From contig NZ_CP055153.1 in assembly GCF_014075995.1 (NCBI RefSeq), positions 868,001 through 932,000 on the forward strand: a stretch of 64,000 nt of DNA, written 5' to 3'. How positions within the stretch are numbered: the first letter of the stretch is position 1; the number at the start of each line of letters is the position of its first letter. Source of the stretch: Adhaeribacter radiodurans (GTDB taxonomy: Bacteria > Bacteroidota > Bacteroidia > Cytophagales > Hymenobacteraceae). The translations under genes and the position numbers were made by a program. Below are positions 10,793 to 58,558 of the stretch, in pieces. The notes below the pieces were generated by a model that did not search any database, was not told the DNA's origin, and saw nothing but the letters and a program-made list of their open reading frames with translations.

Positions 10793-10827
10793 ACTTACAA
10801 CCTAAAACTTGCTGCTTGCAACCTAAG
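10793..10827. repeat. Heptad-periodic intergenic repeat (tract A)
   Basis: Five successive 7-mers read ACTTACA, ACCTAAA, ACTTGCT, GCTTGCA, ACCTAAG. The tract runs up to and into the stop codon of the LytTR regulator (stop at 10823-10825). On the reverse strand the unit resembles GTTnTAn, the form seen in tracts C and D. Confidence 0.6.
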
Positions 10828-11599
10828 CTCCGAGCCATTTTTTGAAATCAGGTGCCCGGTCGCGGCTCACGTACACGTCTTCGTTGGCCGTTGGCTTTAA
10901 TGCCAGTTTGTATTTGCCGTTAAAATGAACAAACACATCGCTAATTGCCCGGCGTTGTACTAAATACTGGCGGCTGGCCCGGAAAAATTTGGTGCTATCT
11001 ACTTGTTGTTCTACTTCTTCCAGAGGGTAATCCAAGGAAAAAAAGCGGCCATCGTGGGTTTTTAAAAAAGTGACCCGGTCTTCGCTGTAAAAATAGGCAA
11101 TGTCCGGGGTGCTGATAGAAATAAGGCGCTGACCCTGACGTACCAGAAAATGCTCGCGTTGCGGATGGCTGGCGGGAGCAGTAGTCCGGCGTAATTCCTG
11201 AAGCAATTCGTCCATGTTAAAGGGCTGTGGCTTACTGTATACCTGTTGTAACTGCTGAAACTTACGTAAGCTTTTTTGTAAATCTTCGCGCTGAATAGGT
11301 TTTAGTAAGTAATCAATGCTGTGCACTTTAAAAGCTTGTAAGGCAAATTCATCGTAAGCCGTGGTAAAAATTACCGGACAGGTTACCTCTACTTCCCCGA
11401 AAATTTCAAAGCTTTGCCCATCTACCAGTTCAATATCCATTAAAATTAAATCGGGCATAGGGTGAGTGCGCAAAAACTGCACACTTTCTTCGATGCTATC
11501 TGCCGGGCCGTTTATTTTGGCTTGCGGAACAATTTCACGTACCATTTCCAGCATGCGTTGGGCAGCTACGGTTTCATCTTCGATAATAAAAATTTTCAT
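10823..11599 (-). CDS. LytTR-family response regulator
   Basis: 258 aa. Residues 1-120 are a receiver domain with acidic pocket EDE (residues 7-9), phosphoacceptor Asp55 in LILMDIEL, and the Lys in YLLKP. Residues about 150-255 are a LytTR DNA-binding domain (FLVRQGQRLISISTPDIAYFY, FFRASRQYLVQRRAI). Phosphorylated LytTR regulators bind pairs of short direct repeats upstream of target promoters. The ATG at 11599 overlaps the stop of the upstream kinase gene by 4 bp (ATGA), so the two are translationally coupled and form a cognate pair. Confidence 0.93.
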   Translation of the reverse strand: MKIFIIEDETVAAQRMLEMVREIVPQAKINGPADSIEESVQFLRTHPMPDLILMDIELVDGQSFEIFGEVEVTCPVIFTTAYDEFALQAFKVHSIDYLLKPIQREDLQKSLRKFQQLQQVYSKPQPFNMDELLQELRRTTAPASHPQREHFLVRQGQRLISISTPDIAYFYSEDRVTFLKTHDGRFFSLDYPLEEVEQQVDSTKFFRASRQYLVQRRAISDVFVHFNGKYKLALKPTANEDVYVSRDRAPDFKKWLGA

Positions 11600-12675
11600 G
11601 CGGCTTCTGCTTTAATAAGAGGAACTTTTACGGTAAAAAAATCAACTTCTTTTAAAATAATAACTTCCGGTTGGTTCAGTATTTTGTACTTTGCCGCAAT
11701 GTTCGCCAGGCCCATGCCGTTAGAAGCAATTATTCCCCGTTTAGGCTGCAAATTATTTTGAATTACTAGCCATTCCCCGGCTTCCCCATGAATAGTAATG
11801 ATTAAAGGCTTCCGTGCTGAAATTTGATTATGCTTCATGGCATTTTCCAGGAGTATTTGCAAAGTAAGCGGCGGAATCAGGCAAGAGTGTAAATCTTCTT
11901 CTACTTCTACCCGCAGCGAAATACCTTCGCCGAACCGGGTCCGCAATAAAAAAAAGTAAGCTTGCGTAAATTGTAACTCTTGTACCAGGGCAATTAATTC
12001 TTTCTCGTTGCTTTGCAGTAAGTAGCGATACACCTGGGCCAGTTCGGCAATAAATTTTACGGCTTGGGCTTTGTCTTTTTCTACTAAAGCGGTTAAGGTA
12101 TTTAAACTATTAAATAAAAAATGCGGTTTCACCTGGTTTTTCAGCGATTCTAATTGTACCAGCAGGTTTATTTTTTTTAGCTCTTCGGCTTCTTGGGTAG
12201 CTTTTTTCCAGGCTTCCATATAAAATAGTAATTCGTAAAAAGCAGCTACCAGTACTCCGTATAAAAATGTATAGAACAACCCGTATAATATAAAAAGCGG
12301 ATTTGTTTTTTTCAGAGCTTGCAGTCCTTCGTGCATAATTAGTTGGGCGCTGTAAAAAACTCCGTTGGCTATAAACACGCCTAAAACTTCCAGGCTAAAC
12401 CGTTTAATAGAAAGTTGTAAAGCATAGCGCCGATGCGTGTAAAGCACTACTGCCCGGCTGGTTTCCCAGATTAGCAGCGATGCCAGCAAAATATTATCTA
12501 ACACCCCGGCCAGCGACAGCTTGCCTTCCGTACTAATGGTAACGGTCCCGAATAAGCTAAAGCGAAGCAGAGCCATTACTAAAATTCCTATCAGGCGAAC
12601 TCGGTAGCTATGAATAAGTTTCAACGGGTTGGGGCGGAGGGTTGGTTTATTACAAAATAAGGAGCTTATATTCAT
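11596..12675 (-). CDS. LytS-like sensor histidine kinase (His_kinase family)
   Basis: 359 aa. Residues 25-155 contain four membrane helices with no large extracellular domain, followed by a short coiled segment. The phosphoacceptor is His185 in LKNQVKPHFLFNSLNTL, the signature of the LytS/YehU kinase class. The ATP-binding domain follows, with LLENAMKHN (N box) and NGMGLANI (G box). It would sense a membrane or envelope state and phosphorylate the coupled LytTR regulator. The upstream gap at 12676-12774 shares an element with the upstream region of the next gene. Confidence 0.92.
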   Translation of the reverse strand: MNISSLFCNKPTLRPNPLKLIHSYRVRLIGILVMALLRFSLFGTVTISTEGKLSLAGVLDNILLASLLIWETSRAVVLYTHRRYALQLSIKRFSLEVLGVFIANGVFYSAQLIMHEGLQALKKTNPLFILYGLFYTFLYGVLVAAFYELLFYMEAWKKATQEAEELKKINLLVQLESLKNQVKPHFLFNSLNTLTALVEKDKAQAVKFIAELAQVYRYLLQSNEKELIALVQELQFTQAYFFLLRTRFGEGISLRVEVEEDLHSCLIPPLTLQILLENAMKHNQISARKPLIITIHGEAGEWLVIQNNLQPKRGIIASNGMGLANIAAKYKILNQPEVIILKEVDFFTVKVPLIKAEAA

Positions 12676-12720
12676 TCAGCAAATAACTAAACGGCTCACT
12701 TTGCTTATTTCGGGTTTCAC

Positions 12721-12734
12721 TCGTAGAAAAAGCT
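12721..12734. promoter_or_regulatory. Shared upstream element, copy 1 (kinase operon)
   Basis: TCGTAGAAAAAGCT lies 46-59 bp upstream of the kinase start. The same 14-mer occurs at 13476-13489 upstream of the lipoprotein gene. In both copies AGTTG and then GTAGGAG lie on the far side, and a GTGA-containing segment follows at the same 21-nt spacing on the promoter side. It is a candidate LytTR operator or activator site. Confidence 0.5.
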
Positions 12735-12774
12735 GCCTGAGTTGTATTTAAGTTGAGTAAAGTAGGAGAGAAAC

Positions 12775-13359
12775 CTACATTTTTTCCAGGTAAGAAATGC
12801 CGCCACTTTCGTTCGTTAACCGCAGTTCGGGTATGTTTCGGCTGCTGGTGCCTCGTTCGTAACCCGTATAAATTTTAGTGCGATTGGTTAATTCTTCCTG
12901 GCTGTATTCGTAATGACCATCGGTGCTGTTTGCGCTGGGGGCTGTGGTTTTTTCCCATTCTCCTTTTGCCCAAATTAAAGTCAGACTGCCATCGTCCCCC
13001 AATTTTACCCGGCCAGTTTCTTTAGAGGCTCCGTAAATACTATAATAGGTGCTGGGGCGGTTTTCGGTATACCAGTAACGTTCTATTTTGTTATCATCTT
13101 TAAACACGAGGGTTATAGCACCCGAAACACCCATTGCTTTCACAAACTGGCCTTGGTTCCAGGCGTTCGCCAGCGAAATAGTGGTAGTAGACCAACTGCC
13201 TTTTAACTCATCGGGCAAATCAGCACCGCCCGGATGCGGACCGTAGGCGGCACTATTTACTCCTTTTTCTTCTTCCGTTTCAAGTAATTCGCAACTGGAA
13301 AGGAAGAGCATAAATAAGCAACAAATAGGTAAAAGGGAAATTAAAAATAGCTTTTTCAT
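12775..13359 (-). CDS. Hypothetical lipoprotein, possible target of the LytTR system
   Basis: 194 aa. The signal peptide ends in the lipobox LSSC (Cys23), then ELLETEEEKG. The mature protein contains LKGSWSTTTISL followed by beta-rich segments (AITLVFKDDNKIERYWY, GSLTLIWAKGEW), which resembles a lipocalin-like opening, but I cannot assign a family with confidence. It sits just upstream of the kinase/regulator operon on the same strand and shares a 14-bp upstream element with it, so co-regulation is inferred. Confidence 0.75.
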   Translation of the reverse strand: MKKLFLISLLPICCLFMLFLSSCELLETEEEKGVNSAAYGPHPGGADLPDELKGSWSTTTISLANAWNQGQFVKAMGVSGAITLVFKDDNKIERYWYTENRPSTYYSIYGASKETGRVKLGDDGSLTLIWAKGEWEKTTAPSANSTDGHYEYSQEELTNRTKIYTGYERGTSSRNIPELRLTNESGGISYLEKM

Positions 13360-13475
13360 TTTCTTGATTTTTAATGTTTTAGGATAGCTTTTGGGTTGGT
13401 TTTGCTACAAAGTAATAGCGCCCCGTTTTACTAGTAAATAGTTAACTGATTCACTCTTCCAATTAAAAGTATCAG

Positions 13476-13489
13476 TCGTAGAAAAAGCT
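13476..13489. promoter_or_regulatory. Shared upstream element, copy 2 (lipoprotein gene)
   Basis: Exact 14-bp match to 12721-12734, here 117-130 bp upstream of the lipoprotein start, with AGTTG and GTAGGAG in the same order beyond it. Confidence 0.5.
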
Positions 13490-13585
13490 AGTTGAATCGT
13501 AGGAGGGAGGTAGTAAGAAAAAGCTAAATAAGCAGTAAGATGGAAAATTGTTTAACTAATGAAGTACGTGCAGGCACTAAAGAGA

Positions 13586-13635
13586 AAATCCTAAATTAAA
13601 AAGTGAGCCTGGCTGACTTTTTAATTTAGGATTCT
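13586..13635 (-). terminator. Terminator downstream of rocD
   Basis: Long AT-rich stem: AATCCTAAATTAAAAAGT (13588-13605) pairs with ACTTTTTAATTTAGGATT, loop of about 11 nt, about 100 bp past the rocD stop. Confidence 0.75.
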
Positions 13636-13735
13636 TAATCGGGCTGTTTACCTTAAACCGGCAGTTTTAAATTTCTTTGATTGCTTATTTTTTATCGTTA
13701 AAAAGGGAATGGTTATGAAGTAAAATCTTACCGCT

Positions 13736-14974
13736 TTAAAAATTCGTAATTGTTTTCTGAATAATATCGCAGCATTTGTGCAATTGTTCTTCTGTAATAA
13801 CCAGCGGTGGCGCAAACCGGATAATATCGCCGTGGGTAGGCTTTGCAAGTAAACCGTTTTCTTTTAACGCTAAACAAACATCCCAGGCCGTTCGCCCATC
13901 GAGACCAGGCTTGATAACAATAGCGTTGAGCAAACCTTTGCCACGCACGATTTGCACTACCTCCGGAAATTGATTTTGTAATTGGCGCATGCGTGTCCGG
14001 AAAATTTCTCCCAGTTTAAAAGCATTCTCGGTTAAGTTTTCTTCTTTTATTACTTCTAAAGCAGCCACTAACACCGCGCAAGCCAAAGGATTTCCTCCGT
14101 AAGTAGAACCATGCTGACCGGGTTTGATGCACAACATAATAACATCGTCGGCCAGAACAGCAGAAACTGGTAAAACGCCACCCGATAGGGCTTTACCTAA
14201 AATTAATATGTCCGGACGGATATTATCGTACTGCGAGGCCAGTAACTTACCAGTGCGGCCAATACCGGTTTGAATTTCGTCGGCGAGCAACAATACTTTA
14301 TATTTTTCGCAGAGTGCTTTGGCTTGGGTTAAATATCCCTCACTAGGTACGTAAACACCGGCTTCACCTTGAATGGGTTCTACTAAAAAACCGCATACGT
14401 GCGGATTTTGTAAGGCTTCTTCTAAAGCTTCCAAATCGTCGTAAGGCACTACTTTAAAGCCAGGCATAAATGGCCCGAAACCTCCCGTAGAATCCGGATC
14501 TGTAGAAAAAGAAATAATACCGGTAGTGCGGCCATGAAAATTATGATCTACCACTATAATCTCGGCTTGGTACTTCGGAATACCTTTTTCTTCGTAGCCC
14601 CACTTACGCGCTAGTTTTATGGCTGTTTCTACGGCTTCGGCCCCCGAGTTCATGAGTAAAGCTTTATCGTAGCCAAAATACTCGCAAATATATTTTTCGC
14701 ATTCGCCCAATTTGTCGTTGTAAAAAGCCCGTGAAGTAAGCGTAAGTACTTGGGCCTGATTTACTAAAGCCTGAATAATTTTGGGATGGCAATGGCCTTG
14801 GTTTACTGCACTATAAGCCGATAGAAAATCAAAATATTTTTTGCCTTCCAGGTCCCATAAATAAACTCCTTCACCCCGCGTTAACACTACCGGTAACGGG
14901 TGGTAATTGTGCGCTCCGTACTTCTCTTCAAGGTCTATAGCTTGTTGGCTGGAGGTAATGCTGGTAAAATTCAT
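13736..14974 (-). CDS. rocD: Ornithine--oxo-acid transaminase
   Basis: 412 aa, the full length of the family. It is a PLP-dependent class III aminotransferase that moves the delta-amino group of ornithine to 2-oxoglutarate, giving glutamate semialdehyde for proline or glutamate. Seen: the [14 protein letters not shown] start region, [31 protein letters not shown] with the PLP-binding Asp232, and Lys261 in ILGKALSGG. The opening [23 protein letters not shown] is typical of ornithine aminotransferase rather than acetylornithine aminotransferase. It is monocistronic, divergent from the DUF5522 gene. Confidence 0.93.
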
Positions 14975-15135
14975 GGCAGGAAAGTTTTAATTGATAAATT
15001 AGCTGTAGAAACAGCCATTACGTTTATTTTCTTCGGTTGAGTTAAAATTACTTAAAAGAGGTTGTTCTTCAAATACGGCTTTGTAACCCGAATGGTATAC
15101 TTTTGTTAAGTCAATAAAATTAAAATTTATTTCTT

Positions 15136-15291
15136 TTGAAACTAGATAAACTCCCGCCTTTGGAGCCCGGCGACTTTTATTTTAACGAGCAAGGCTTAAT
15201 GGTATTTACGGCGGCCTATCATTTAAAACGAGGCTATTGCTGTAAAAATGGCTGTAAACACTGCCCGTATGGCTTTAAGAAAAAATCTTAA
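15136..15291 (+). CDS. DUF5522 family cysteine-rich mini-protein (TTG start)
   Basis: 51 aa: starts LKLDKLPPLEPGDFYFNE (the first Leu codon TTG would be read as Met) and ends with GYCCKNGCKHCPYGFKKKS. The cluster CC-x3-C-x2-CPYGF is the hallmark of the DUF5522 family found across Bacteroidota and suggests metal binding; the function is unknown. An in-frame stop at 15121-15123 leaves TTG at 15136 as the only usable start before the conserved part. A promoter -7 element TACTTTTG lies at 15098-15105, although no well-spaced -33 element is seen. It is divergent from rocD and 191 bp ahead of rpmB. Confidence 0.8.
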   Translation: MKLDKLPPLEPGDFYFNEQGLMVFTAAYHLKRGYCCKNGCKHCPYGFKKKS

Positions 15292-15412
15292 TTAACGAGT
15301 AACCCAATCTTTGATTTAGTAAATTTATTGCTCCAAATACGTATTCTGGGCTTGGTTTTATTTACTATTTAATGGCCACCCGTAACCGATTTGAAAATTA
15401 TTTAGACGAGAG

Positions 15413-15443
15413 TTTGATTTTTAGGCGATTTTTCGGATATTTG
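15413..15443 (+). promoter_or_regulatory. rpmB promoter
   Basis: TTTG at 15413-15416, 19 bp, then GATATTTG at 15436-15443: close to the Bacteroidota sigma consensus TTTG-N19-TAnnTTTG and about 40 bp ahead of the start codon. Confidence 0.7.
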
Positions 15444-15482
15444 CGTCCCTTTAAGAATAAACTGATTTAGACAAAGATAGAA

Positions 15483-15722
15483 ATGGCCAGAGTTTGTGAT
15501 TTAACCGGAAAAAGACCACAGGTTGGTAATAACGTATCACACGCAAATAATAAAACAAAGCGTAAATTTTACCCCAATCTTCAGAAAAAGAAATTTTATG
15601 TACCGGAAGAAGATGCCTGGATTACTTTAAAAGTGTCTACTTCGGCTATCCGGACTATTAACAAAAATGGTATTTCTGCCGTGCTGAAGAAAGCAGTAGC
15701 AGACGGTTATATCGTTTACTAG
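15483..15722 (+). CDS. rpmB: 50S ribosomal protein L28
   Basis: 79 aa with the standard start [23 protein letters not shown], then [13 protein letters not shown] and a C-terminal helix. It is a structural component of the large ribosomal subunit. In many Bacteroidota rpmB lies directly before rpmG; here an aminopeptidase P gene and a reverse-strand glycosyltransferase separate them. The intergap to the next gene is only 11 bp, so the peptidase may be read from the rpmB promoter. Confidence 0.97.
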
Positions 15723-15733
15723 TATTTCTTTTT

Positions 15734-17167: not shown

Positions 17168-17210
17168 AATATTCAAAACCTGTAAAGATTATACCAGGCA
17201 GAAAAAAGCT

Positions 17211-17942: not shown

Positions 17943-18446
17943 AAAAACTTTTAATGAACAGGTTTAGATTTAGGTTTAATAAAATACAGTCACTTCCGCT
18001 GATACCAAATACGTGTTTGCTGTAAAAAAGACTATTTTAAGTGCTGAAAGTTATATACAATTACGGATACCTTACTAATGTATTATTTAACTTCGTTTTT
18101 ATTTAAAACGAAGTTATCAGGTTTTTTATCATAATTAAGTTAAGTGGTTTTGTAAAAGGGTTATTATTTAAGCTCCAGTTACTCTAGGTTGCATAAATTT
18201 TGTGTACACAGCCCAATAAAATTTAGTTCTGATAACTCTAATCGGATTAAGGATAGCAGGGTTTTACGTTGTTGCTAGTAAGTGCAAGTAATTGATAGTG
18301 ATACGGATGACGAGTAGCAGAGTATTGAACTGAACGTATTAGTACGGATGTTGTCAATGAGGCAAAGAAAACTTTTATAGAAGGCTTGTTGTAATTTAAA
18401 TTTGAATTGACTATATTTGCAGTCCTAATTCAAAAATACAGTTGAG
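17943..18446. other. Divergent intergenic region with hairpin and rpmG promoter
   Basis: 504 bp. It contains a perfect 11-bp inverted repeat, AACTTCGTTTT / AAAACGAAGTT with a 5-nt loop (18089-18115), about 150 bp upstream of the glycosyltransferase start, and the rpmG promoter at 18389-18419. No gene is seen. Confidence 0.6.
18389..18419 (+). promoter_or_regulatory. rpmG promoter
   Basis: TTG at 18389-18391, 20 bp, then a perfect TATATTTG at 18412-18419, 28 bp before the rpmG start. Confidence 0.8.
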
Positions 18447-18629: not shown

Positions 18630-18631
18630 CC

Positions 18632-18787: not shown

Positions 18788-18818
18788 TTATAGTTTTCGC
18801 TCAAAATTAATACAAAGA

Positions 18819-33159: not shown

Positions 33160-33605
33160 AATTGAATAAGTAAATATAAGTTACAATCCCGTGGCAAAAA
33201 GAATTTCAACAAAGTTTTGTGGTAACCAGACTAACCTATTATTAATTATTTACACCTAAAACTTATAACAGAAGCAACTAAAAAGAATGCGCTGAAATCT
33301 ATAAGGTAAACTTTAAAACAAAGTAAAAATCAGGCTTTTTTGAGAAGGGCTTACTAATAAAAACTTTTAAGAAAAGAGACATAAGTATCATGGTATTAGC
33401 TGGTAGATTTTTGTGTTTAAGTAATAGAATGTCTATGCCTTTTTACTACCTGTCCAACATCAAATATTAAAATTAATTTGGTCCGCTTACTTAATCAGCA
33501 AATAATACCAGCAATTTATAAATCCTCAACTTATAAGAACTTTCCTTTGTTGCTCGTTTTCTTTCGCAAAAGTGTTGTTACTTTGTGCACCAAACCATCT
33601 CCGGA
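33160..33605. other. Divergent intergenic region with heptad tract
   Basis: About 446 bp between dinB and the MutS-like gene. It contains heptad tract B (33377-33432) and a -7-like TTACTTTG at 33578-33585. No coding signal. Confidence 0.6.
33377..33432. repeat. Heptad-periodic intergenic repeat (tract B)
   Basis: Eight 7-mers: AGACATA, AGTATCA, TGGTATT, AGCTGGT, AGATTTT, TGTGTTT, AAGTAAT, AGAATGT. The opening GAGACATAAGTAT is identical to the opening of tract D near 37559. Confidence 0.6.
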
Positions 33606-35494: not shown

Positions 35495-36055
35495 ATGGCT
35501 AAAATAATATTTTTACTGGCAATTAAATTACTGTTAAGTAGTTTCATGTGCTTTAGCCAAACCACGGATTCGATTCAGATTTTATCTTCGGAAAAAATAA
35601 ACCCAAAGGAAGTAAAGTATTTTATGGTGTTAGATAAGCCTGGTAAAGTGAGCCGGATTCGTTTTTACACCGGCAATAAAATTACTTTTAAGCTAACCGG
35701 CGAAAAACAACGTTATTCCGATCAAATTACTAATATTAAAAAGCATTCTATAGTTATGTGGGATACTGAAATTCCACTGCGGGATATACGAAAAATAAAA
35801 TTAGCAAATACCAGTACTGTTTCTTCGGGCCTTCAGTTTCTGGGCCGATTGCTAAAAAACGGGGGATTATTTTTCTCGGTTATAGGTGCCGGAAATTACC
35901 TTTTAGATAAAGAACCTGGTGATAATACTCTTACTTTTTTAAAATATACGGCTGGCGCTTTTATTGCCGGACAGTTGCTTACCCGTACCAGTCGTAGCCG
36001 AACTTACAAGATAAACGAAAATCACCGGTTAAAAACAATTGAGCAGTTTTGGTAA
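35495..36055 (+). CDS. Hypothetical secreted/membrane protein
   Basis: 186 aa. A signal peptide (1-21) is followed by a beta-rich stretch (KYFMVLDKPGKVSRIRFYTG), then a hydrophobic Gly/Ala-rich pair of segments (GGLFFSVIGAGNYLL, FLKYTAGAFIAGQLL) and a basic tail. I do not recognise the family. It is the first of three co-directional uncharacterised genes, separated from the next by heptad tract C. Confidence 0.7.
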   Translation: MAKIIFLLAIKLLLSSFMCFSQTTDSIQILSSEKINPKEVKYFMVLDKPGKVSRIRFYTGNKITFKLTGEKQRYSDQITNIKKHSIVMWDTEIPLRDIRKIKLANTSTVSSGLQFLGRLLKNGGLFFSVIGAGNYLLDKEPGDNTLTFLKYTAGAFIAGQLLTRTSRSRTYKINENHRLKTIEQFW

Positions 36056-36064
36056 AATTAAAAA

Positions 36065-36155
36065 GTTGTAAGTTTTAGATTTTACGTTCATTCTCAATTG
36101 TATCATTTAAATTAAAAACGTATAACGTAGTACGTTTAACGTAAAACTAACCACT
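36065..36155. repeat. Heptad-periodic intergenic repeat (tract C)
   Basis: Thirteen consecutive 7-mers in one phase, starting GTTGTAA, GTTTTAG, ATTTTAC, GTTCATT and ending AAAAACG, TATAACG, TAGTACG, TTTAACG, TAAAACT. The left and right ends are partly complementary (TTTTACGTT against AACGTAAAA), so the tract can fold back. It begins 10 bp after a stop codon. Confidence 0.65.
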
Positions 36156-36173
36156 TATTCACACAAGATTAAA

Positions 36174-36416
36174 ATGCGCGTAGTTGCTGAAATACCTCAT
36201 GCAGCAGTTAAAATAACTGTTTTTGCCTGGAACGGAAAATTCCTGATTAAGCTCGAAAGAGGGCCTTATGAACAAACGTATAAAATTAGCGAAACGGATG
36301 TATTGGGTGATGAAGGTTTAAAACATATTTTAGACGAAACTTTTATTAACGAAGCCGTTGAATTGTTTGGGCAAATGCACCAAAACTTAATGGCCGCCCA
36401 GGAGCGGGCAGATTAG
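36174..36416 (+). CDS. Conserved-looking small hypothetical protein
   Basis: 80 aa: MRVVAEIPHAAVKITVFAWNGKF, then EQTYKISETDVLGDEGLKHILDETFINEAVELFGQMHQNLM. A small beta sheet followed by helices is expected; no signal peptide, so cytoplasmic. The regular composition and good codon phase argue for a real gene. I recall similar short proteins in Cytophagales but cannot name a family. Its role is unknown. Confidence 0.75.
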   Translation: MRVVAEIPHAAVKITVFAWNGKFLIKLERGPYEQTYKISETDVLGDEGLKHILDETFINEAVELFGQMHQNLMAAQERAD

Positions 36417-36499: not shown

Positions 36500-37549
36500 A
36501 TGGATAACGAAAATTCCACAATTCGGTCGCTGAACGAACTTAAAACATTATACGATTCGGGCGCAATTACTGCGGAAGAATACGACGCACTTAAAAAACG
36601 CATTATTTTTGGATCTTCCACTCCCGAAGAACCCAAACCTATCCCCGAACCAGCGCCAATTATGTCTTCTTCGCCAGAAGCGGTTAATCCTATTGAAACC
36701 AGAATAATATATCCTACCGGACCCGCAACTCCTGAGCCACCTATAGCGGAGCCACCGGTGGTTGAGCAAAATTTTTATAATGAAGAAGAATCGCCGATGG
36801 GAGTAAGACCTGCTCCCAAAAAAGATTGGCTGTTAATTTCTCTAGCTGTGTTGGGCGCTTTGTTATTATTGGGTTTGCTGGCCTATCAGTTTTTTAACAA
36901 GCCTCAATCCGAACGTTTAACCAGTAAATCGGGCCCAGATACCGAAGAAATAATACCTGATGCTTCGCAAGAAGAATCACCAGGCGATTCAACCGAAATT
37001 CTTTCCAACCGCTCCGATCGAATTCCAGTAGCGGGTTCTGATAGTACAACTACAACTTCCTCTGCTTCTACACCGGAAACAACTAGCGAAACAATTACCA
37101 CTCCTGACGAAACAGTTAATACAGCAACCGCCGGGTTACTCACCGATAAAACTGAAGTTATCCGGAAAGCACAGGAGAAATTAAACGCTTATTACGCTGA
37201 TATTCAGGAGGCACCTTTTGAAGCAGCTAATTACTTTGCTCCCCAGGTAGAACGGTATTATACCTTATCGAACACCACGCCGGCAGCTATCAACGTAAAT
37301 ATTAATACTTACCACTTCCCGGAGTTTTTAAATGGGCAAAGCAGTATTCAGGCAGGTTCTATGGAAGTAGTAAGTATGGGTAACAACAGCTACGAACTAA
37401 CTTATCTGGAAAACGGTTCGGCGTTTCGTAAATCTAAAAATCAAAAGCAGGAAACTAAGGCCGCCGTCCGCGTCCGCTTTAACCCGGACTTTAAAATTAC
37501 TTACTTCCGCCAGGAACAATTGTTAGAGAATCGATTTATAACGGAGTAG
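36500..37549 (+). CDS. SHOCT-domain membrane protein of unknown function
   Basis: 349 aa. Residues 8-35 (SLNELKTLYDSGAITAEEYDALKKRI) form a SHOCT motif, here N-terminal and cytoplasmic. A Pro/Glu-rich linker (40-105) leads to one membrane helix (WLLISLAVLGALLLLGLLAYQFF, about 112-134). The outer part has a Ser/Thr-rich linker and a folded C-terminal domain (about 230-349, KLNAYYADIQEAPFEAANYFAPQVERYY). The C-terminal domain resembles NTF2-like pockets, but this is weak. Possibly a sensor of envelope state. Tract D begins right after its stop. Confidence 0.75.
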   Translation: MDNENSTIRSLNELKTLYDSGAITAEEYDALKKRIIFGSSTPEEPKPIPEPAPIMSSSPEAVNPIETRIIYPTGPATPEPPIAEPPVVEQNFYNEEESPMGVRPAPKKDWLLISLAVLGALLLLGLLAYQFFNKPQSERLTSKSGPDTEEIIPDASQEESPGDSTEILSNRSDRIPVAGSDSTTTTSSASTPETTSETITTPDETVNTATAGLLTDKTEVIRKAQEKLNAYYADIQEAPFEAANYFAPQVERYYTLSNTTPAAINVNINTYHFPEFLNGQSSIQAGSMEVVSMGNNSYELTYLENGSAFRKSKNQKQETKAAVRVRFNPDFKITYFRQEQLLENRFITE

Positions 37550-37551
37550 TA

Positions 37552-37635
37552 AGTATCGAGACATAAGTATAAAGATTTTAGACACAAGATAAAAGACAGT
37601 TGTAAGTAGCAGGTTCTAAGTTCTACGTTCACTAT
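37552..37635. repeat. Heptad-periodic intergenic repeat (tract D)
   Basis: Twelve 7-mers in one phase starting 2 bp after a stop codon: AGTATCG, AGACATA, AGTATAA, AGATTTT, AGACACA, AGATAAA, AGACAGT, TGTAAGT, AGCAGGT, TCTAAGT, TCTACGT, TCACTAT. The clearest of the tracts. Confidence 0.75.
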
Positions 37636-37739: not shown

Positions 37740-38040
37740 AAGAACAAATGACACCAGCTTGGCTGTTGAGGGCCTTCTAAGGTTCCGGTTCTGCGTAGCA
37801 GAATTCCGACGTCAGTAGGAAAGGAAGCTTAGACCCTCCCGAAAGAGCCAAACGAGGCCCGCCGGCCACGAGGTAAACTCAGCCGGTTCAAATAAGTTAG
37901 CACCTGAGCCTGGAGACGGGAACCGGCTCCAAAGAATAACAATAAAAAGAGTTACAGAAGCACATTCACCAGTCAGGAGACTGGCTCTTGTCAAAAAGGC
38001 ACCAGTGTCGCTGCGCTAAACACTGGCGCCAGTATAAGTT
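37740..38040. ncRNA. GC-rich structured intergenic element, candidate ncRNA or repeat
   Basis: This part of a 526-bp convergent gap is markedly richer in G+C than the rest of the intergenic DNA. Hairpins seen: TTCTGC-GTA-GCAGAA (37789-37803), AGCCGGTTC (37881-37889) with GAACCGGCT (37920-37928), CCAGTC-AGGA-GACTGG (37969-37984), CCAGTG with CACTGG (38002-38026), and the palindrome ACTGGCGCCAGT (38022-38033). Open frames are short and featureless. It could be a structured RNA, a dispersed element or paired terminators for the two converging genes. Confidence 0.35.
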
Positions 38041-43324: not shown

Positions 43325-43397
43325 GTAAAATTCTAACTACGTTATAGGTTAACTAAAAACTGCTTTACCATTTTACTTTTTTAGATTAACCTAATAC

Positions 43398-43430
43398 TTC
43401 TTACCAAAATCTGCGTAGCAGAGGTAAACT
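43398..43430. repeat. Second copy of a 13-bp palindromic unit
   Basis: TCTGCGTAGCAGA at 43410-43422 is identical to 37790-37802 in the GC-rich gap. It lies just before the pseudouridine synthase gene. Confidence 0.5.
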
Positions 43431-43465
43431 TATTTTAGCCTCCTGGCTGATCAGCATAATTTTTT

Positions 43466-46849: not shown

Positions 46850-46892
46850 AACTGAACATCGGATAACCAACTCTGATGTTCAGTTTTTTTTA
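46850..46892 (+). terminator. Terminator/attenuator between rpsB and tsf
   Basis: AACTGAACATC (46850-46860) pairs with GATGTTCAGTT (46875-46885), then a T run. Transcription of tsf may therefore be partly independent or attenuated. Confidence 0.8.
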
Positions 46893-46943
46893 ATCCATAT
46901 ACAGATGTTGGAAGCAGTAATTAAGAATTTATACCAGTATAAG

Positions 46944-46985
46944 CTTCTAACTTTTAACCAATAACTTTTAACTCATAACTAAATA
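46944..46985. repeat. Heptad-periodic intergenic repeat (tract E)
   Basis: Six 7-mers: CTTCTAA, CTTTTAA, CCAATAA, CTTTTAA, CTCATAA, CTAAATA, ending 5 bp before the tsf start codon, so it occupies the translation initiation region. Confidence 0.65.
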
Positions 46986-50245: not shown

Positions 50246-50263
50246 AATAACTTTAAAACAACT

Positions 50264-51229: not shown

Positions 51230-51237
51230 GAAGAACG

Positions 51238-52614: not shown

Positions 52615-52707
52615 GAATGAATAGATGTTAAATCTAATACGGGCGTTGCCTGCAAAAACGCTAACGTACAAGTTATTAATAAATTTTATGTACAGAAGCG
52701 TTTCGTA

Positions 52708-52715
52708 CAAAGGTA
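52708..52715 (-). promoter_or_regulatory. Putative -7 element of the surA-moxR unit
   Basis: Reverse-strand TACCTTTG fits TAnnTTTG. A CAAA (TTTG on the reverse strand) lies 14 bp further upstream, short of the ideal 19. Confidence 0.45.
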
Positions 52716-52733
52716 CGGGAATTAATGCACAAA

Positions 52734-52766
52734 ATAAAAGCGCTAACCGGTTTGGTGCGCTTTTAT
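52734..52766 (-). terminator. Terminator of the PPIase lipoprotein gene
   Basis: ATAAAAGCGC (52734-52743) pairs with GCGCTTTTAT (52757-52766); T-rich on the reverse strand. Confidence 0.75.
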
Positions 52767-52786
52767 CTGGTTAGAGTTTTAGAAAA

Positions 52787-55081
52787 TTATTTTTGAGTAA
52801 GCTTCTGTACTTCAGCCTGATTAACCTGTACCGGATACTTTTGGCGCAACTCTTTTAACCATTCTTTTTCCAGGTAAGCCTGGTAGTCAGAAGTAGCAAT
52901 TCCGCGCACCTCGTTCAGGCTTTTATAACCAGGTGGTAATATTTGATTTATTTTAATAAACACAGCCCGGCCATCTTTCTCCAGGTTGTAAGTACCTTCC
53001 TTCCAGGTGATTTCATCTAAAATTTTGTTTTCTCCTTTTTGGAAGCGTTTATTCTGAACCTGAACGGCTAACGGGTTTGCTGCATTCAGCGTTTCTTCAA
53101 TGCCTTTTAAGTCACTGGTAAATAAGGTAAAGGATACATTCCGGTTAGCAGCACTTACCGTTTTAGGCTTATTAGTGGTAGCGGTAATCCGATTAACAGG
53201 TACTCCTTTTTCTTTAAGAAAAGCTGCTACCTGCTGGGCGCGCCGATTAGCCAAATTCGCGTTTTTGCCACTGCTTTCTTTTGAATCGGCGTTTCCGGTG
53301 AGAGTAACACTGAGCAAAGGATCACCTAATAAACGGTCAGAAAGAGCCGTTAGTTGCTCTTTGGTTTCTGGAGTAAAGGTGTCTTTTCCTGCTCCAAACA
53401 AGATTGGTTCCGGACGCGATTTTACTAATTCGTATTTACCTGTAGTGAGCATTTGCTGCGCTTGCGCTAAAATATCCTTATTGGCCGCACTTATCACAAT
53501 GGCATCGGCCCGGGTATCCCACTTATAGTTTTCCTTATTTTGCTCAAAAAAGGCTTGTAGCCCCACCGTATCCTGAATGGCTTTAGACCACACTTTTTCG
53601 TCCATGAGCTGAAAAAGTAAAATTCCATCGCGGTACTCATTTACCAGCATTTTGTAGTCCACGTATTTCGATTCCAGGTGCTCCCGTTCGTAGTTTAGGA
53701 GACTGGTTGTTACATAATTATCATAGAGTACGTTCATCGCGTGCCCGGGAGAGGCATTGGCAATAGGTTTCTGATTTTTCTGGGCGTAAGTAAAAAAGTC
53801 TTTTACGGTGTATTGCCGATCTTGCAAAGTGAAAAGCGACTGATTAACTTCTTTTGCTTCTTTATCCGAAGCGGTATATTGCCAGGTGCCACCGGTTAAA
53901 GCATCGGTAGCTTTACTAAGAGCAAAATCTTTGGCTGCTTTTACCTCCTGAAAATTGTTTTCTTGTTTTATGCGTTTCAGAAAAGCAGTTTTATTTAATT
54001 CGGAACGGGAATCCTTAGCTACTTTGCTGCGCAGGTACGATTCCATTTCTTCAAAGGCGGGCAAGCTGCGGCGCTCTATTAATTTAATAATATGCCAGCC
54101 ATAAGGGGTTTGTACGGGTTTAGAAATATCACCCACGGTAGTTAGTTTAAACGCTGCCTCTTCAAAAGAAGGTAGCATACGGCCGGTACCAAACCAAGGT
54201 AGTTCACCACCATTCGTGGACGAACTTGCATCTTCGGAGAATTGAGCCGTTATTTTATCCCAGTTTTCTTTTCGGGTGAGGCGGTTATAAATAGCATCAA
54301 TTTTTTTCTTAGCTACCACGGAGTCCGCTTTGGGAATACCGGGAGTAGCGCGAACCATAATATGGGCTACTTTTATTTCTCCTTGAGCCGGACGAACATC
54401 ATTTACTTTTATTAAGTGATACCCAAACCGGGTCCGGACAGGCATGGAAAGTTGTCCTTTCAATGTATTGTAGGCAGCTTTTTCAAACGGATACAACATT
54501 TGCAAGGCTGTAAAATAACCCAGATTTCCGCTGTTTTCTTTAGCAGAGGGATCATCGGATTGTGAGCGGGCCAAAGTATTAAAATCTTCGCCGGCCTCAA
54601 TGCGGCGGCGGAGTTCCAATGTTTTATTATAAGCCGCCAAGGTGTCTTTAGGATCGGCATCTGGCGCTACGTTCACCAGAATATGCGAAGCATTTACTTC
54701 TTGCTTCATCCGGTCGTATGCTTCCTTTACCAATTGGTCGGTTACATTTTTTTCGGTAAGATAAGGCTGGGCGAGTTGTTCTTTGTAGCCTTCTAGTTCT
54801 TTCCGGAAAGCAGTAGTAGTATCTAAGCCTCGTTTTTCTGCCTCGGTAACTTTTAATTTAAAATTAGTATACAGTTCCAGATATTCCTGAACGCTGCCTT
54901 TTGCGGCGGCATTATCTGGCTGACTGTTGTTTTTATTGTAAACGTAGTTAAACTCGGTGGTAGTTACCGGTTTACCAGCTACAGTAAAAAGTACCGGTTC
55001 TTTGTTTTCCGGGGTTTTAGAGGCATTACATCCGGTAAGTAATAAAAGCGTACCACCAACAAGGAAAAGGCTTCTGTGCAT
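52787..55081 (-). CDS. Multidomain parvulin-type PPIase lipoprotein with an OmpA-like segment
   Basis: 764 aa from the ATG at 55081; the upstream start at 55138 would bury the signal peptide. Lipobox LTGC (Cys19). Two parvulin domains: VNASHILVNVAPDADPKDTL...GNLGYFTALQMLYPFEKAA, and IKVAHIMVRATPGIPKADSV...GELPWFGTGRMLPSFEEAAF. Near residues about 570-650 an OmpA-like segment appears (SVTLTGNADSKESS, then NANLANRRAQQVAAFLKEKGV). An SurA-like C-terminus ends in EKEWLKELRQKYPVQVNQ. It is anchored in the envelope, possibly peptidoglycan-linked, and folds secreted or outer-membrane proteins. Confidence 0.87.
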   Translation of the reverse strand: MHRSLFLVGGTLLLLTGCNASKTPENKEPVLFTVAGKPVTTTEFNYVYNKNNSQPDNAAAKGSVQEYLELYTNFKLKVTEAEKRGLDTTTAFRKELEGYKEQLAQPYLTEKNVTDQLVKEAYDRMKQEVNASHILVNVAPDADPKDTLAAYNKTLELRRRIEAGEDFNTLARSQSDDPSAKENSGNLGYFTALQMLYPFEKAAYNTLKGQLSMPVRTRFGYHLIKVNDVRPAQGEIKVAHIMVRATPGIPKADSVVAKKKIDAIYNRLTRKENWDKITAQFSEDASSSTNGGELPWFGTGRMLPSFEEAAFKLTTVGDISKPVQTPYGWHIIKLIERRSLPAFEEMESYLRSKVAKDSRSELNKTAFLKRIKQENNFQEVKAAKDFALSKATDALTGGTWQYTASDKEAKEVNQSLFTLQDRQYTVKDFFTYAQKNQKPIANASPGHAMNVLYDNYVTTSLLNYEREHLESKYVDYKMLVNEYRDGILLFQLMDEKVWSKAIQDTVGLQAFFEQNKENYKWDTRADAIVISAANKDILAQAQQMLTTGKYELVKSRPEPILFGAGKDTFTPETKEQLTALSDRLLGDPLLSVTLTGNADSKESSGKNANLANRRAQQVAAFLKEKGVPVNRITATTNKPKTVSAANRNVSFTLFTSDLKGIEETLNAANPLAVQVQNKRFQKGENKILDEITWKEGTYNLEKDGRAVFIKINQILPPGYKSLNEVRGIATSDYQAYLEKEWLKELRQKYPVQVNQAEVQKLTQK

Positions 55082-55367
55082 ATAATTTAAAAACAAACGA
55101 CTAGTGCTATGGTGCTGATAGAGTAAAATTAACGACAAGCAATTTACGAATTTTTAATCGCGGAATAACATGCATGTACAAGATTGCACGGATTTTTAGC
55201 CAAAACGATGCCGTATTGTTTTTTGGTATATAAGAAAGATACTTTATTTAAGAAAATGAAGAATAAAGTAAATCTAACCAGCAGTTGTTAGAACAAGGTT
55301 AATCAGAAAAATAGTAGGTATTTACTTTACAAATACATTAATTAAAAAGATCATCACATAATAATTA

Positions 55368-55808
55368 TTAGTATAAAACCTGATTAGATTTTATTGAGTT
55401 AGCAAGGTTTTTATAAAGTCTACTGTAGTTGGTTCCATTGTTGGAAACAAACTCGACTTTATCCATTATATGATGAACTAAAAACATTCCTAATCCGCCC
55501 TTTATTCCGTCTCTAATTTTTTCTTCAACATTTGGGGGTAAATATTTAGCAGGATTGTAGGAAACTCCCTGATCAGTAAACTCAAATAAGAGATTACTTC
55601 TTTTACTGGAAATAGTTAATTCAATGAATTTACTACTGTCTTTTTTGTTAGCGTGGATGATTAAGTTGGCACTTATTTCATCCACCGCTAACACAATATC
55701 CTCCTTTACTTGTTCATTAAGAGCATAGGCGCTTAAGAAATCCCGGACGAAGTCCCGGACTCTTTGCAAATTGTCTACGTCACAGCTAATCCGAATGGAG
55801 TTATTCAT
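55368..55808 (-). CDS. RsbW-like serine kinase / anti-sigma-type ATP-binding protein
   Basis: 146 aa from the ATG at 55808. GHKL ATPase fold: the N box VKEDIVLAVDEISANLIIHANKKDS, then FTDQGVSYNPAKYLPP (G1-like), and GGLGMFLVHHIMDKVEF (G2). Such proteins phosphorylate a STAS protein and bind a sigma factor or other target. The ATG overlaps the STAS stop by 8 bp (ATGAATAA), so the two are coupled. No sigma factor gene is nearby. Confidence 0.88.
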   Translation of the reverse strand: MNNSIRISCDVDNLQRVRDFVRDFLSAYALNEQVKEDIVLAVDEISANLIIHANKKDSSKFIELTISSKRSNLLFEFTDQGVSYNPAKYLPPNVEEKIRDGIKGGLGMFLVHHIMDKVEFVSNNGTNYSRLYKNLANSIKSNQVLY

Positions 55809-56145
55809 TAGCAATCGTCATAGCTTCATCGTAAGAGGAGACTATCGTCATCAGCAAGTCTAACCCCAGAATTTCGAAAACGTTTTTAACCTTATCCTGC
55901 ATGTTAAAAAAGATAAGTTTAATCTGTGCATCTTCGAAACGTTGCAGGTGCGAAATAAACACACCTAAGCCTGCTGATGAGATATAGTTAAGCCGATCAC
56001 AATCCACCAGAATTTTTTTAAACAGCATAATTTCTGGTTTAGATAATTCTTCATCCAGCAAAACAGAGGAGCTGGCGTCTAGCTCACCATTTAAGTGAAT
56101 GGTAAACGTCTGGTCTTTGATTTCGTGTGTTATTTTCATCGCCAT
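55801..56145 (-). CDS. STAS-domain anti-anti-sigma-like protein
   Basis: 114 aa. STAS fold with the regulated Ser57 in LNYISSAGLGVFISHLQRF, where phosphorylation by the RsbW-like kinase normally blocks binding. IEFE and phosphatase-type neighbours fit partner switching. The start is 8 bp after the SpoIIE-type phosphatase stop. A second in-frame ATG at 56139 is possible. Confidence 0.92.
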   Translation of the reverse strand: MAMKITHEIKDQTFTIHLNGELDASSSVLLDEELSKPEIMLFKKILVDCDRLNYISSAGLGVFISHLQRFEDAQIKLIFFNMQDKVKNVFEILGLDLLMTIVSSYDEAMTIANE

Positions 56146-56153
56146 TTATTACG

Positions 56154-58214
56154 TCACAAGATTAAATTTGGTTGATCATTTCTGAACTTAATCACAATGA
56201 GAGTTTGGTCGTCGTGGATGTATTCTCCGCTAAAATTATTTAAATCGTTGATAATAGCCGCTTTAATATCATCTGCTTCCAGGTGATATGTAGTACTAAG
56301 CATTTCCCGCAAGCGGTCTTCCCCGTATTCGTCTTGGCTGGAACTACGGGCTTCTACAATACCATCGGTGTAAATAATCATTACGTCGCCAGGGTTATAA
56401 TCGTAGTGCATGTTATGGATGCGCTTACCATACGATTTATCCCGGATAATACCTAATCCCAAACCTTCGGTATTAAAGTAAAACGTTTCTTCGGTCATGG
56501 AGTTGTAGTATAACGTATGGCAATGACCTGCCCGGGCAAAAAAGAAACCTTTTAATTTATAATCAATAATATACAGAGCAGCAGTAATAAACGATGTACG
56601 TTCGAGGCAATGCGTAAGCGCATTATTTGCCTTTTGCATAAATTCTACGGGTTGCAAATCATCTTGCATCAAACCATGGAAAATGCCTTTCATTTGGGCC
56701 ATGTGAAAAGCTGCCGTGATTCCTTTACCCGATACATCGCCGATAATGATAGCAATACGGCTTTCGCTTACCTGCAAAAAATCGTAAAAGTCACCGCCTA
56801 CTTCTTTGGCGGCCTGGCTAAAGCAACTGATTTCGAACCAGCTATCGCTCGGGAAAGTTTTCGGGATTAAGCTTTCTTGCACCGAAGAAGCAATTTTTAA
56901 TTCTTCCTTATATCGTTCGTTTTGCAGCGACTCGGCTACTAAGCGCAAATTTTCGATTGTAAGTATAGTTTGGCTGGTAAAAGTACGAATAACACTGAGG
57001 GTTTCCCGATCGAAGCCTTGTTCTACATCTTTTAGTAAATACAAAGTAGCATAAGCGCGTTTCTGCGAGCGTAGGGGTATCACATTCAGCGAACGCCAAG
57101 GAAGATTAAGAGACTTAAAGCTCGTATTTTGATCAAGATTATTGTTTACATACTCTACCGTAGACACCTGGTATTGATCCAGAATTTGCCGGATTTGCTT
57201 TACTTCTTCCAGATCAATATTTTCAGCTTCAATCAGGGACAGGGTACCCGTATCATCTTGCACCTCCAACCAGGCAGCATCCGCGTTAGAAGCTTTAATG
57301 GCACTACCGAACATTAGTTTGTATACCTGCGGCTCATCTTCGCCCTGCTGAATGGACTGGCTTAAACGCTGTAAATTAAGTAAATCTTCGCGCTTTTGTT
57401 CGAATACCGAAGAAGTGGGTAAATTAAAAATAGCTACTAACAGCGAAGCCACGGTGTACATCCCCACAAAGGTGCAGGTAAGCACCAAAAAAGGGTCTTC
57501 AAAAAGATTGCCCGTTAACTGCTGCTCAGGCGAAAAGTAAGTAAAAATATTATAGAAAATAACTAAACTTAGAACAATGCCAATTAGCAAAAAAATAGAT
57601 CGCCATTTTTTTGTAGCCGTTAAATAAGCTACCCACCGTAAATGAATACACAGGAAAAGAGTGTATAGTAAAAATAGCCCGACGAGCGGTACAAAACTTT
57701 GTAAGTTTAACTGGAAAAAATTGCTAAGCAGAGTAGCATAAATTACGATTTCAAACCATTGCCACTCGTATTGCAAAGCCCGGGTTTTCTGGAACAAAAT
57801 CATGTTGCGCCAGATGTAAAAGGCTTTACCTAAAAAGTAAATAAGAAAAGCAAAATTTATATAATAAATGGTGCCCAGCAAAATAGAATGATCGCCGGAA
57901 GTACGGCTTGCATAGTGGAAGTAGCCAAAATAAAGAAGCGCACTAACGTAGGCCGTGGTTCCCGCCCGCAGAAACAGTCTCCATAAATATCCAATAAAAT
58001 CGGTGCCTCGATAGGTATCTACGGATACTCGCTGGGTTAAGAAAGAAAACGCAATAAAGCTAACTTTAAAAATTCGGCCTAGTAAAGGAGCATTCGCCGC
58101 AAAAACTTCCGGATAGGAACCATGATTAGCAAACAAAGCATTAATAAGCAACAAAAACCAGCTAACTAGGGCGGTTACAGTATATAACCTTTTGTAATTA
58201 ATGGAATAAGGCAT
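56154..58214 (-). CDS. Membrane-bound SpoIIE-type PP2C phosphatase with GAF domain
   Basis: 686 aa. Residues 10-270 hold about eight membrane helices, residues 290-440 resemble a GAF sensor (SAIKASNADAAWLEVQDDTGTLSL), and residues 455-680 form a PP2C-SIG phosphatase with the metal-binding Asp in EVGGDFYDF, IIGDVSGKGI and MIIYTDGIVEAR. It would dephosphorylate the STAS protein in response to a membrane or small-molecule signal. It is the first gene of the SpoIIE-STAS-RsbW operon. The promoter lies at 58267-58297. Confidence 0.92.
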   Translation of the reverse strand: MPYSINYKRLYTVTALVSWFLLLINALFANHGSYPEVFAANAPLLGRIFKVSFIAFSFLTQRVSVDTYRGTDFIGYLWRLFLRAGTTAYVSALLYFGYFHYASRTSGDHSILLGTIYYINFAFLIYFLGKAFYIWRNMILFQKTRALQYEWQWFEIVIYATLLSNFFQLNLQSFVPLVGLFLLYTLFLCIHLRWVAYLTATKKWRSIFLLIGIVLSLVIFYNIFTYFSPEQQLTGNLFEDPFLVLTCTFVGMYTVASLLVAIFNLPTSSVFEQKREDLLNLQRLSQSIQQGEDEPQVYKLMFGSAIKASNADAAWLEVQDDTGTLSLIEAENIDLEEVKQIRQILDQYQVSTVEYVNNNLDQNTSFKSLNLPWRSLNVIPLRSQKRAYATLYLLKDVEQGFDRETLSVIRTFTSQTILTIENLRLVAESLQNERYKEELKIASSVQESLIPKTFPSDSWFEISCFSQAAKEVGGDFYDFLQVSESRIAIIIGDVSGKGITAAFHMAQMKGIFHGLMQDDLQPVEFMQKANNALTHCLERTSFITAALYIIDYKLKGFFFARAGHCHTLYYNSMTEETFYFNTEGLGLGIIRDKSYGKRIHNMHYDYNPGDVMIIYTDGIVEARSSSQDEYGEDRLREMLSTTYHLEADDIKAAIINDLNNFSGEYIHDDQTLIVIKFRNDQPNLIL

Positions 58215-58266
58215 AAAGGATATGGCTGGTTACTGCAAACTCAATTAAAGAGGCTACCAAACGATT

Positions 58267-58297
58267 CAAATATAAGTTTTACTAAATAAGATTCAAA
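58267..58297 (-). promoter_or_regulatory. Promoter of the SpoIIE/STAS/RsbW operon
   Basis: On the reverse strand TTTG (58294-58297), exactly 19 bp, then TATATTTG (58267-58274): a full match to the Bacteroidota consensus. Leader of about 45 nt. Confidence 0.85.
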
Positions 58298-58387
58298 CTT
58301 CTAACAAAATTAGCCTAAAAAAGCTTCTAAGTTTAAACGCATCATAAATTTTAAAGCTATTTAAAATGGGTACAAAGTTTTGAACAC

Positions 58388-58436
58388 AAAAGAGTCCCAA
58401 TTTTAAACTGGTTATTTTAAAATTGGGACTCTTTTG
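58388..58436 (-). terminator. guaB terminator
   Basis: Near-perfect 18-bp stem AAAGAGTCCCAATTTTAA with its complement, T run on both sides; 120 bp past the guaB stop. Confidence 0.88.
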
Positions 58437-58523
58437 CACGTAGCTATCAGGCACCAGATAAATAAAGAATGAAGTGCCTTAATTCAGTTTTTTAGAAGCT
58501 TATTACCAAAGCATTAAGATTAT

Positions 58524-58558
58524 AACAATGAACAACTAGGAACAATCAACTAATCATT
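58524..58558. repeat. Possible heptad-periodic repeat (tract F)
   Basis: AACAATG, AACAACT, AGGAACA, ATCAACT, AATCATT directly abutting the guaB stop codon. The period is less regular than in tracts C and D. Confidence 0.35.

Follow-up and report, generated by a model that had tools for sequence, protein, structure and literature searches.

Intergenic spacers of Adhaeribacter radiodurans (Hymenobacteraceae) carry arrays of degenerate 7-bp units, or heptads, that adjoin stop and start codons with their G-richer strand directed outward from it. The arrays were followed up from a stretch of 64,000 nucleotides, hereafter the window (positions 868001 to 932000 of the 6.8-Mb contig NZ_CP055153.1; whole genome, 6.94 Mb), in which a sequence-only reading had described six gaps with heptads of a "strict" 7-bp period. 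The period-7 signal is real, and we give an even chance to the view that it marks heptanucleotide slippage arrays at gene edges, often present as inverted pairs.

A period-7 signal at gene edges

Genes were taken from a greedy longest-open-reading-frame (ORF) caller (at least 90 amino acids [aa] in most runs), such that gene starts are approximate; the spaces between ORFs are referred to as gaps. Dinucleotide shuffles of the gaps served as controls, with neighboring periods as an internal control. In 158 kb of intergenic sequence from 800 kb of the genome, lag-7 identity is 0.2931, versus 0.2813 in shuffles (z = 10.1), so that the proposed excess over dinucleotide-shuffled sequence was found. 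Lag 7 stands above lags 6 and 8, and lag 14 behaves likewise (z = 6.2); lags 3, 4, 6, and 10 are raised as well (z = 14.9, 12.7, 7.5, and 6.5, respectively). The 64-kb window by itself is weak (lag-7 z = 2.6, not above lags 3 and 4). A column model, i.e., a period detector that tolerates degenerate units and is scored per gap, separates period 7 from other periods better than lag autocorrelation does. Scores of at least 12 at period 7 occur in 17 of 491 gaps of the genome (window included), versus 0.3 in shuffles, confirming recurrence in other gaps; the same threshold is reached at period 14 in 6 gaps and at periods 5 to 6 and 8 to 13 in 1 to 3 gaps each. At scores of at least 10, the count is 27 of 491 gaps (864 kb), versus 1.7 in shuffles, which by proportion suggests approximately 200 array-bearing gaps genome-wide. 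The period is thus specific, as claimed, but "strict" is too strong a word, as some gaps have 8-bp units or a mixture of 7- and 8-bp units.

Edge, polarity, and arm statistics were obtained from 1,501 gaps in 15 Cytophagales sample groups that were chosen after the data had been seen. Excluded for little or no period-7 excess were sets G011, G012, G027, G029, G030, G032, G034, and G037, together with the Cyclobacteriaceae, Sphingobacteriia/Chitinophagia, and Flavobacteriia sets; also excluded were loci L014 (array at a contig end) and L208 (4.6 kb), and gaps cut by locus ends were dropped. With a tract defined by a score of at least 9 and an edge tract as one lying within 15 bp of a gene edge, 125 of 207 period-7 tracts are edge tracts, versus 46.9 expected. 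Periods 5, 6, 9, 10, and 11 yield only 24 to 45 tracts each, with observed/expected edge counts of 2/3.1, 8/4.5, 8/6.6, 5/3.5, and 5/2.4, respectively, and period 8 appears as a minor partner (63 tracts, 24 of them at edges, versus 12.2 expected). The two arms of one gap, and tracts detected at both periods, are not independent items in these counts. Divergent gaps hold 30 of the 207 tracts while making up 275 of the 1,501 gaps. At 64 stop edges picked for having an adjacent tract, lag-7 identity climbs within ~6 bp of the stop codon and drops past 35 to 40 bp, indicating that arrays are typically five to six units long and barely enter the gene.

In the direction leading outward from the gene, G outnumbers C in 97 of 119 nontied period-7 edge tracts (59 of 72 at stops and 38 of 47 at starts), and the same holds for period 8 (19 of 19 at stops and 4 of 5 at starts). 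Convergent gaps, in which no start codon is involved, show the same polarity, with 13 outward-G versus 4 outward-C tracts at period 7 and 9 versus 0 at period 8. Polarity is strong in A. radiodurans itself (14 outward-G to 2 outward-C) and in its congeners G006 (18:1) and G003 (9:0); it is weaker in G005 (21:10), and G001, G002, and G004 show none (3:3). These labels denote members of the comparison set, which includes seven further genomes of the genus. Tract-free edges of the genus have an outward GC skew of 0.15 at starts and 0.02 at stops, and the polarity is therefore specific to tracts at stops but partly general at starts, where the ORF caller may also have contributed. Within a set of 169 tracts, those more than 50 bp from an edge are unpolarized (23 outward-G, 24 outward-C). 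The words themselves, read outward, group into several dialects among the 125 edge tracts: ATTAGAA/GTTGCAA-like (64 tracts), AGATGTT/AGTTGTT-like (38), TAGTCCA-like (16, of which 13 are in G005), and TTAARGC-like (4). A link to stop codons, as first noticed in the window, is correct but incomplete, because arrays also adjoin starts, where the polarity is mirrored, and occur in inverted pairs.

The distribution of the signal is uneven. Counting gaps that score at least 10 at a given period, period 7 leads in the genus samples G006 (25 of 220 gaps, versus 0 to 6 at other periods, period 14 apart), G003 (10 of 140), G005 (5 of 43), and G001, G002, and G004 combined (6 of 75), as well as in named loci of Hymenobacter (7 of 34) and Rufibacter (4 of 25) and in sets G008, G009, G026, and G038. 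The RecA proteins of A. radiodurans and Rufibacter sediminis are 91% identical. Period 7 does not lead in G011, G012, Cyclobacteriaceae (1 of 51 gaps), Sphingobacteriia/Chitinophagia (4 of 143), or Flavobacteriia (5 of 420), although isolated strong heptad arrays exist even in such nonleading sets (e.g., loci L068, L069, and L075). Escherichia coli K-12 has no period-7 tract in 74 gaps of 150 kb, and the two tracts of a Runella plasmid (46 gaps in 100 kb) both lie away from edges, which counts against a uniform signal. In the A. radiodurans genome, the pattern AACTTNNAACTTNNAACTT matches 8 times, at 7 places, against none for its reversed control, and it is present in 14 of 39 genomes, including A. 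radiodurans and six of its seven congeners; the reversed control has no hit in the genus but has 8, 1, and 1 hits in G026, G028, and G033.

Arrays of the window

The tracts of the window, for which the best period-7 score of each gap was compared with those of 1,000 dinucleotide shuffles of that gap, are as follows.

10788..10822, minus strand (the outward, G-richer strand): tract A, five heptads, directly adjoining the stop codon of the minus-strand gene at 10823-11599
33368..33493 (approximate; ~33365-33500), plus strand: tract B, a copy belonging to a ~130-bp dispersed family, AAGAGACATAAGTAT ... TTACTTA
36061..36088, plus strand: gap C left arm, composed of AGTTNTA-type units that begin 5 bp past the stop of the gene at 35495-36055
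36109..36157, minus strand: gap C right arm, composed of AACGTAN-type units and ending ~15 bp upstream of the start of the gene at 36174-36416
37550..37598, plus strand: tract D first array, flush with the stop codon of the gene at 36500-37549, in a convergent gap
37603..37630, plus strand: tract D second array, AGTTCTA-type units, score 8.9
46903..46930, plus strand: possible left arm of gap E, after the terminator-like hairpin of rpsB
46948..46982, minus strand: tract E right arm, composed of AACTTTT/AACTCAT units and ending 8 bp upstream of the tsf start codon (46991)
58526..58553, minus strand: tract F, heptads of marginal support next to the stop of the minus-strand gene at 58557-60026

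Of the six gaps for which heptads had been claimed, those of A, C, D, and E are upheld, F is marginal, and B fails. Lag-7 identities given below refer to the coordinates of the sequence-only reading. Tract A scores 11.3, a value reached by 0 of 1,000 shuffles (lag-7 identity, 0.54), and is not shared, as the two orthologous gaps found score 1.1 (G005) and 2.5 (G006). Gaps C and D had been described as single runs; the heptads are present, but each run is in fact two arrays. In gap C, the right arm is strong (score 14.0; gap best score of 13.5 in the shuffle test, reached by 0 of 1,000; lag-7 identity, 0.55), and the left arm alone is weak (6.2), with left arms of the same style in the orthologous gaps of G003 and G006. 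Arrays whose units differ from those of A. radiodurans occupy this gap in G005 (11.6), G006 (17.4), and G003 (33.7), while the orthologues of G001, G002, and G004 are without an array. The first array of D scores 13.0 (0 of 1,000 shuffles; lag-7 identity of D, 0.52), and its orthologous gaps score 9.6 (G005), 5.7 (G006), and 4.6 (G003). Tract E scores 14.1 (0 of 1,000 shuffles; lag-7 identity, 0.66), and its possible left arm is not significant in A. radiodurans (4.5), with clear AGATNNT units at that place in G005 and G001. Orthologous rpsB-tsf gaps score 17.9 (G005), 29.1 (G001), 18.0 (G002), and, weakly, 6.2 (G004), and an array is also present in Hymenobacter daecheongensis (L008; 20.3); the gap lacks an array in two Rufibacter loci (1.4 and 1.9) and in L021 (3.5). 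Tract F scores 6.6, which 45 of 1,000 shuffles reach, its lag-7 identity of 0.57 is exceeded at another lag (0.61), and orthologous gaps in six genomes score 1.5 to 5.6.

Tract B is a dispersed family with some AGATNTT-like heptads, rather than a simple array. The best period-7 score of its gap (5.2) lies elsewhere in the gap and is reached by 205 of 1,000 shuffles, i.e., is not significant, and the lag-7 identity of the tract is 0.37, versus up to 0.35 at other lags. Sequence around B has 11 matches in the genome at E ≤ 0.001, B included; the others are 68 to 82% identical, several of them partial, and four aligned copies share ~130 bp, from AAGAGACATAAGTAT to TTACTTA. The family is possibly a small mobile element. 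The 13-mer GAGACATAAGTAT, which B was said to share with D, is indeed common to both and has five copies in the genome, versus none for its reversed control; in B it forms part of the dispersed family.

Three further features lie in these gaps. A terminator-like hairpin follows rpsB at 46860-46900 (CTGAACATC ... GATGTTCAG plus a T-run) and, by eye, is kept in five genomes of the genus and two Rufibacter loci. Gap F contains a long terminator-like hairpin (58360-58440), whose stem letters differ among A. radiodurans, G005, G003, and G006 but by eye seem paired in each. At 37750-37930, a G+C-rich stretch (GGGCCTTCTAAGGTTCC ... GAGCCAAACGAGGCCCGCCGGCC) is conserved in the gaps orthologous to gap D in both G005 and G003, and it is apparently repeated within the genome (loci L089, near 8677, and L125, near 9605), making it a candidate dispersed palindrome family or RNA. 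The Rfam scan of the window gave no match at gathering scores, either for this stretch or elsewhere.

Inverted arms and the growth of arrays

In gaps with edge tracts, the left part commonly resembles the reverse complement of the right part: in 24 of 84 such gaps, the match beats 95% of cross-gap pairings, versus 4.2 expected. Arm scores of at least 14 occur in 6 of 17 tract-bearing versus 21 of 219 tract-free gaps shorter than 100 bp, in 28 of 48 versus 41 of 387 gaps of 100 to 199 bp, and in 19 of 53 versus 139 of 676 longer gaps. Where tracts lie at both edges (18 gaps), the heptad profiles of the two arms agree (median, 0.948, versus 0.679 for nonmates of the same genome), exceeding 95% of nonmates in 9 of 18 gaps and 80% in 17 of 18. 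When folded, 13 well-matched, hand-picked gaps gave stems with z values of −0.5 to −11.9; that of L196 17896-17986 is near perfect (z = −11.3), despite differing units along each arm. A very long, near-perfect hairpin in a G010 gap (L196 10465-10689, GTCATGCTGAGCGCAGTCGAAGCATC ..., z = −11.9) seems to be another dispersed palindrome that is not based on heptads.

Replication slippage emerges as the best-supported generator of the arrays, and of the origins first suggested for them, from a 28-bp difference and from simulations. At one stop-codon edge, G002 has six tandem AACAACC units and its close relative G001 has one to two, the 28-bp alignment gap being 4 × 7 (the alignment does not tell gain from loss). 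The unevenness of differences among heptad columns is 8.9 in the real arrays, 8.6 to 9.4 in serial-duplication simulations, and 6.5 to 7.1 under independent mutation, and its spread therefore fits serial duplication with mutation. A first column test had pointed to column-specific constraint (70 of 128 tracts at P < 0.05), but it was inflated because one variant unit yields two lag-7 mismatches in the same column, and constraint was rejected given that serial duplication suffices. In the scheme that we favor, arrays would lengthen by slippage in steps of 7 and sometimes 8 nucleotides (nt), a second arm would arise through DNA-level fold-back or template switching, and the arrays would thereafter be tolerated in spacer DNA. 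In some gaps an array persists between species although its units have changed. Of 186 pairs of orthologous gaps (in which gaps recur across pairs), both members have a tract in 16, one in 24, and neither in 146.

Several observations weigh against slippage. By itself, it predicts neither the outward-G polarity nor the flush edges nor a matching second arm, and template switching is deduced solely from the inverted arms, not observed. A second array differs by 24 bp between G001 and G002, which is not a multiple of 7, and persistence in the same gap across species (16 of 40 tract-bearing pairs) could also mean function. The outward-G polarity and flush edges are what would surprise a specialist.

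Alternatively, the arms could pair in the transcript as functional RNA hairpins that influence termination, the stability of the mRNA, or the accessibility of the next start codon. In keeping with this idea are the strong stems predicted for some gaps (such as that in L196 noted above), the match between the arms of a gap (24 of 84 gaps at the 5% level), and the rpsB-tsf array, which persists in four of the five genus genomes compared. However, mismatched arm pairs on the sense strand are G·U in 103 and A·C in 94 cases across 42 codirectional gaps (interval, 0.45 to 0.59), with 40 versus 30 in 12 convergent and 11 versus 10 in 4 divergent gaps. The lack of a G·U excess argues for a process at the DNA level rather than in RNA; selection on RNA pairing was rejected on this basis, and the translation or RNA-stability role suggested earlier gains no support from the arm mismatches. 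In addition, the layout is found in convergent gaps, mirrored on both strands, and the arms of gap E use different words, so that we consider hairpin function unlikely. Nor was there a signal for a promoter between the arms, sense-strand TAnnTTTG occurring in 1 of 17 codirectional gaps with both arms, versus 179 of 745 tract-free gaps.

Known heptads and competing explanations

The closest description found concerns Xanthomonas and Nostoc, whose GGGAATC and GGGGA(C/T)T heptads, in the portions of that report available, are mostly intergenic and 0 to 50 bp from ORFs, with the G strand being the coding strand after stops and the noncoding strand before starts (PMC4692102). There, inverted pairs number 70 in Xcc and 75 in Xac and are few in Nostoc; the heptads mostly lie between the same genes in two species, with differing length and sequence; heptads are underrepresented between divergent ORFs; and G-quadruplex roles are discussed, without a function having been found (PMC4692102). 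So far as this account goes, the Cytophagales arrays are alike in their 7-bp unit with conserved and variable positions, ORF-end position (125 of 207), outward G-rich strand (97 of 119), inverted pairs in one gap, scarcity in divergent gaps (30 of 207 tracts), and behavior across species. They differ in having many words, a minority of 8-bp units, and another phylum as host. Moreover, the single G-run word capable of forming a G-quadruplex is replaced here by several word families: GGG occurs in 9 of 125 edge tracts, a three-tetrad quadruplex motif in none, and a two-tetrad motif in 4. A G-quadruplex thus cannot be the common cause, and any shared cause must lie elsewhere.

Direct TAACTGA repeats, per the part of the source available, are intergenic in Beggiatoaceae, some Cyanobacteria, and five Bacteroidetes, and in the Beggiatoaceae genome they mostly stand forward before start codons, with inverted pairs essentially absent (one) (PMC4679880). 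The likeness lies in intergenic heptads near coding starts; the window tracts use words other than this fixed forward one, and such other words prevail among the edge tracts, with TAACTGA-like units in one G001 array. Both sources credit Mrazek et al. (2007) with the abundance of heptads and with the idea of slippage set by the polymerase footprint (as cited in PMC4679880 and PMC4692102). Tandem repeats of constant size and variable sequence in Bacillus, as far as described in the text available, resemble the arrays in fixed length with varying sequence but not in unit size, which is 52 or 20 to 21 nt (PMC8161180). Beyond the TAACTGA heptads, the literature searched, which covers few subscription journals, held no account of such Cytophagales arrays; the sequence-only reading knew of no description for this lineage, but the phylum is not blank.

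The cyanobacterial comparison drawn at the outset was apt. Short tandemly repeated repetitive (STRR) sequences of cyanobacteria are degenerate heptads, and 350 kb of a Trichormus plasmid has 12 period-7 tracts in 192 gaps, versus 2 to 8 at the other periods tested, although this small sample lacks outward-G polarity (1 outward-G versus 4 outward-C). In plasmid A of Trichormus variabilis, a 95-bp gap (L272 43073-43143) has two facing arrays, CAGGAGT-type and its complement, on the same two-arm plan. Integron attC sites, which have an AAC-type core site 5′ and a GTT-type core site 3′ and lie beside an integron integrase, were rejected as a match, since the arms here are reversed (GTT-type 5′, AAC-type 3′); an integrase was not searched for.

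A constant layout with varying words could also reflect DNA sites for a protein or structure (a nucleoid protein, gyrase or topoisomerase, or a cruciform) that insulates neighboring genes, with orientation under selection. Edge position, polarity, and inverted pairs hold steady while words vary, and the reported layout is alike in Xanthomonas and Nostoc; yet the column variation needs no selection, and the differing words make a sequence-specific binder hard to fit. We regard such sites as a shade less probable than RNA hairpins.

Insertion of mobile spacers resembling miniature inverted-repeat transposable elements (MITEs) or repetitive extragenic palindromes (REPs) into gaps, one of the origins first proposed, is improbable. 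Tract B belongs to a dispersed family, and inverted ends recall terminal repeats, but for A, C, D, and E the fit is poor: the heptad arrays have only short words in common (a shared core was not sought systematically) and fill gaps from stop to start. Gap 43325-43465 illustrates the latter, with arrays present only in G001 and G002, spanning stop to start, and no target duplication visible by eye. Selection for stops in all three frames past the gene (7 being coprime with 3) scarcely merits consideration: stop edges with tracts do have 3.61 stops per 42 nt, versus 2.94 at tract-free ones (all frames, 0.35 versus 0.24), but the reverse strand of the same tracts does equally well (3.47; all frames, 0.44), and thus stop selection does not explain polarity and is not supported as its driver, and arrays such as GGTTGTT have no stops.

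As a long shot, the arrays are candidate scars of break healing, in which, after a double-strand break in the spacer, both 3′ ends would be trimmed back to the coding edge, a slipping or telomerase-like polymerase would lengthen them outward by adding G/T-richer heptads, and the ends would then be joined. If true, this would account at once for flush edges, two-sided outward-G polarity, and inverted pairs of one word, as well as for a layout common to Xanthomonas, Nostoc, and Cytophagales despite their different words; near-perfect stems with differing units would demand an extra copying step.

Whatever their origin, a polar, inverted layout of heptads at gene edges is found in a third, unrelated group, with G-poor words. 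Array-rich genomes, and close relatives with differences at individual arrays, make it possible to test why bacteria favor 7-bp repeats and why these point away from genes.

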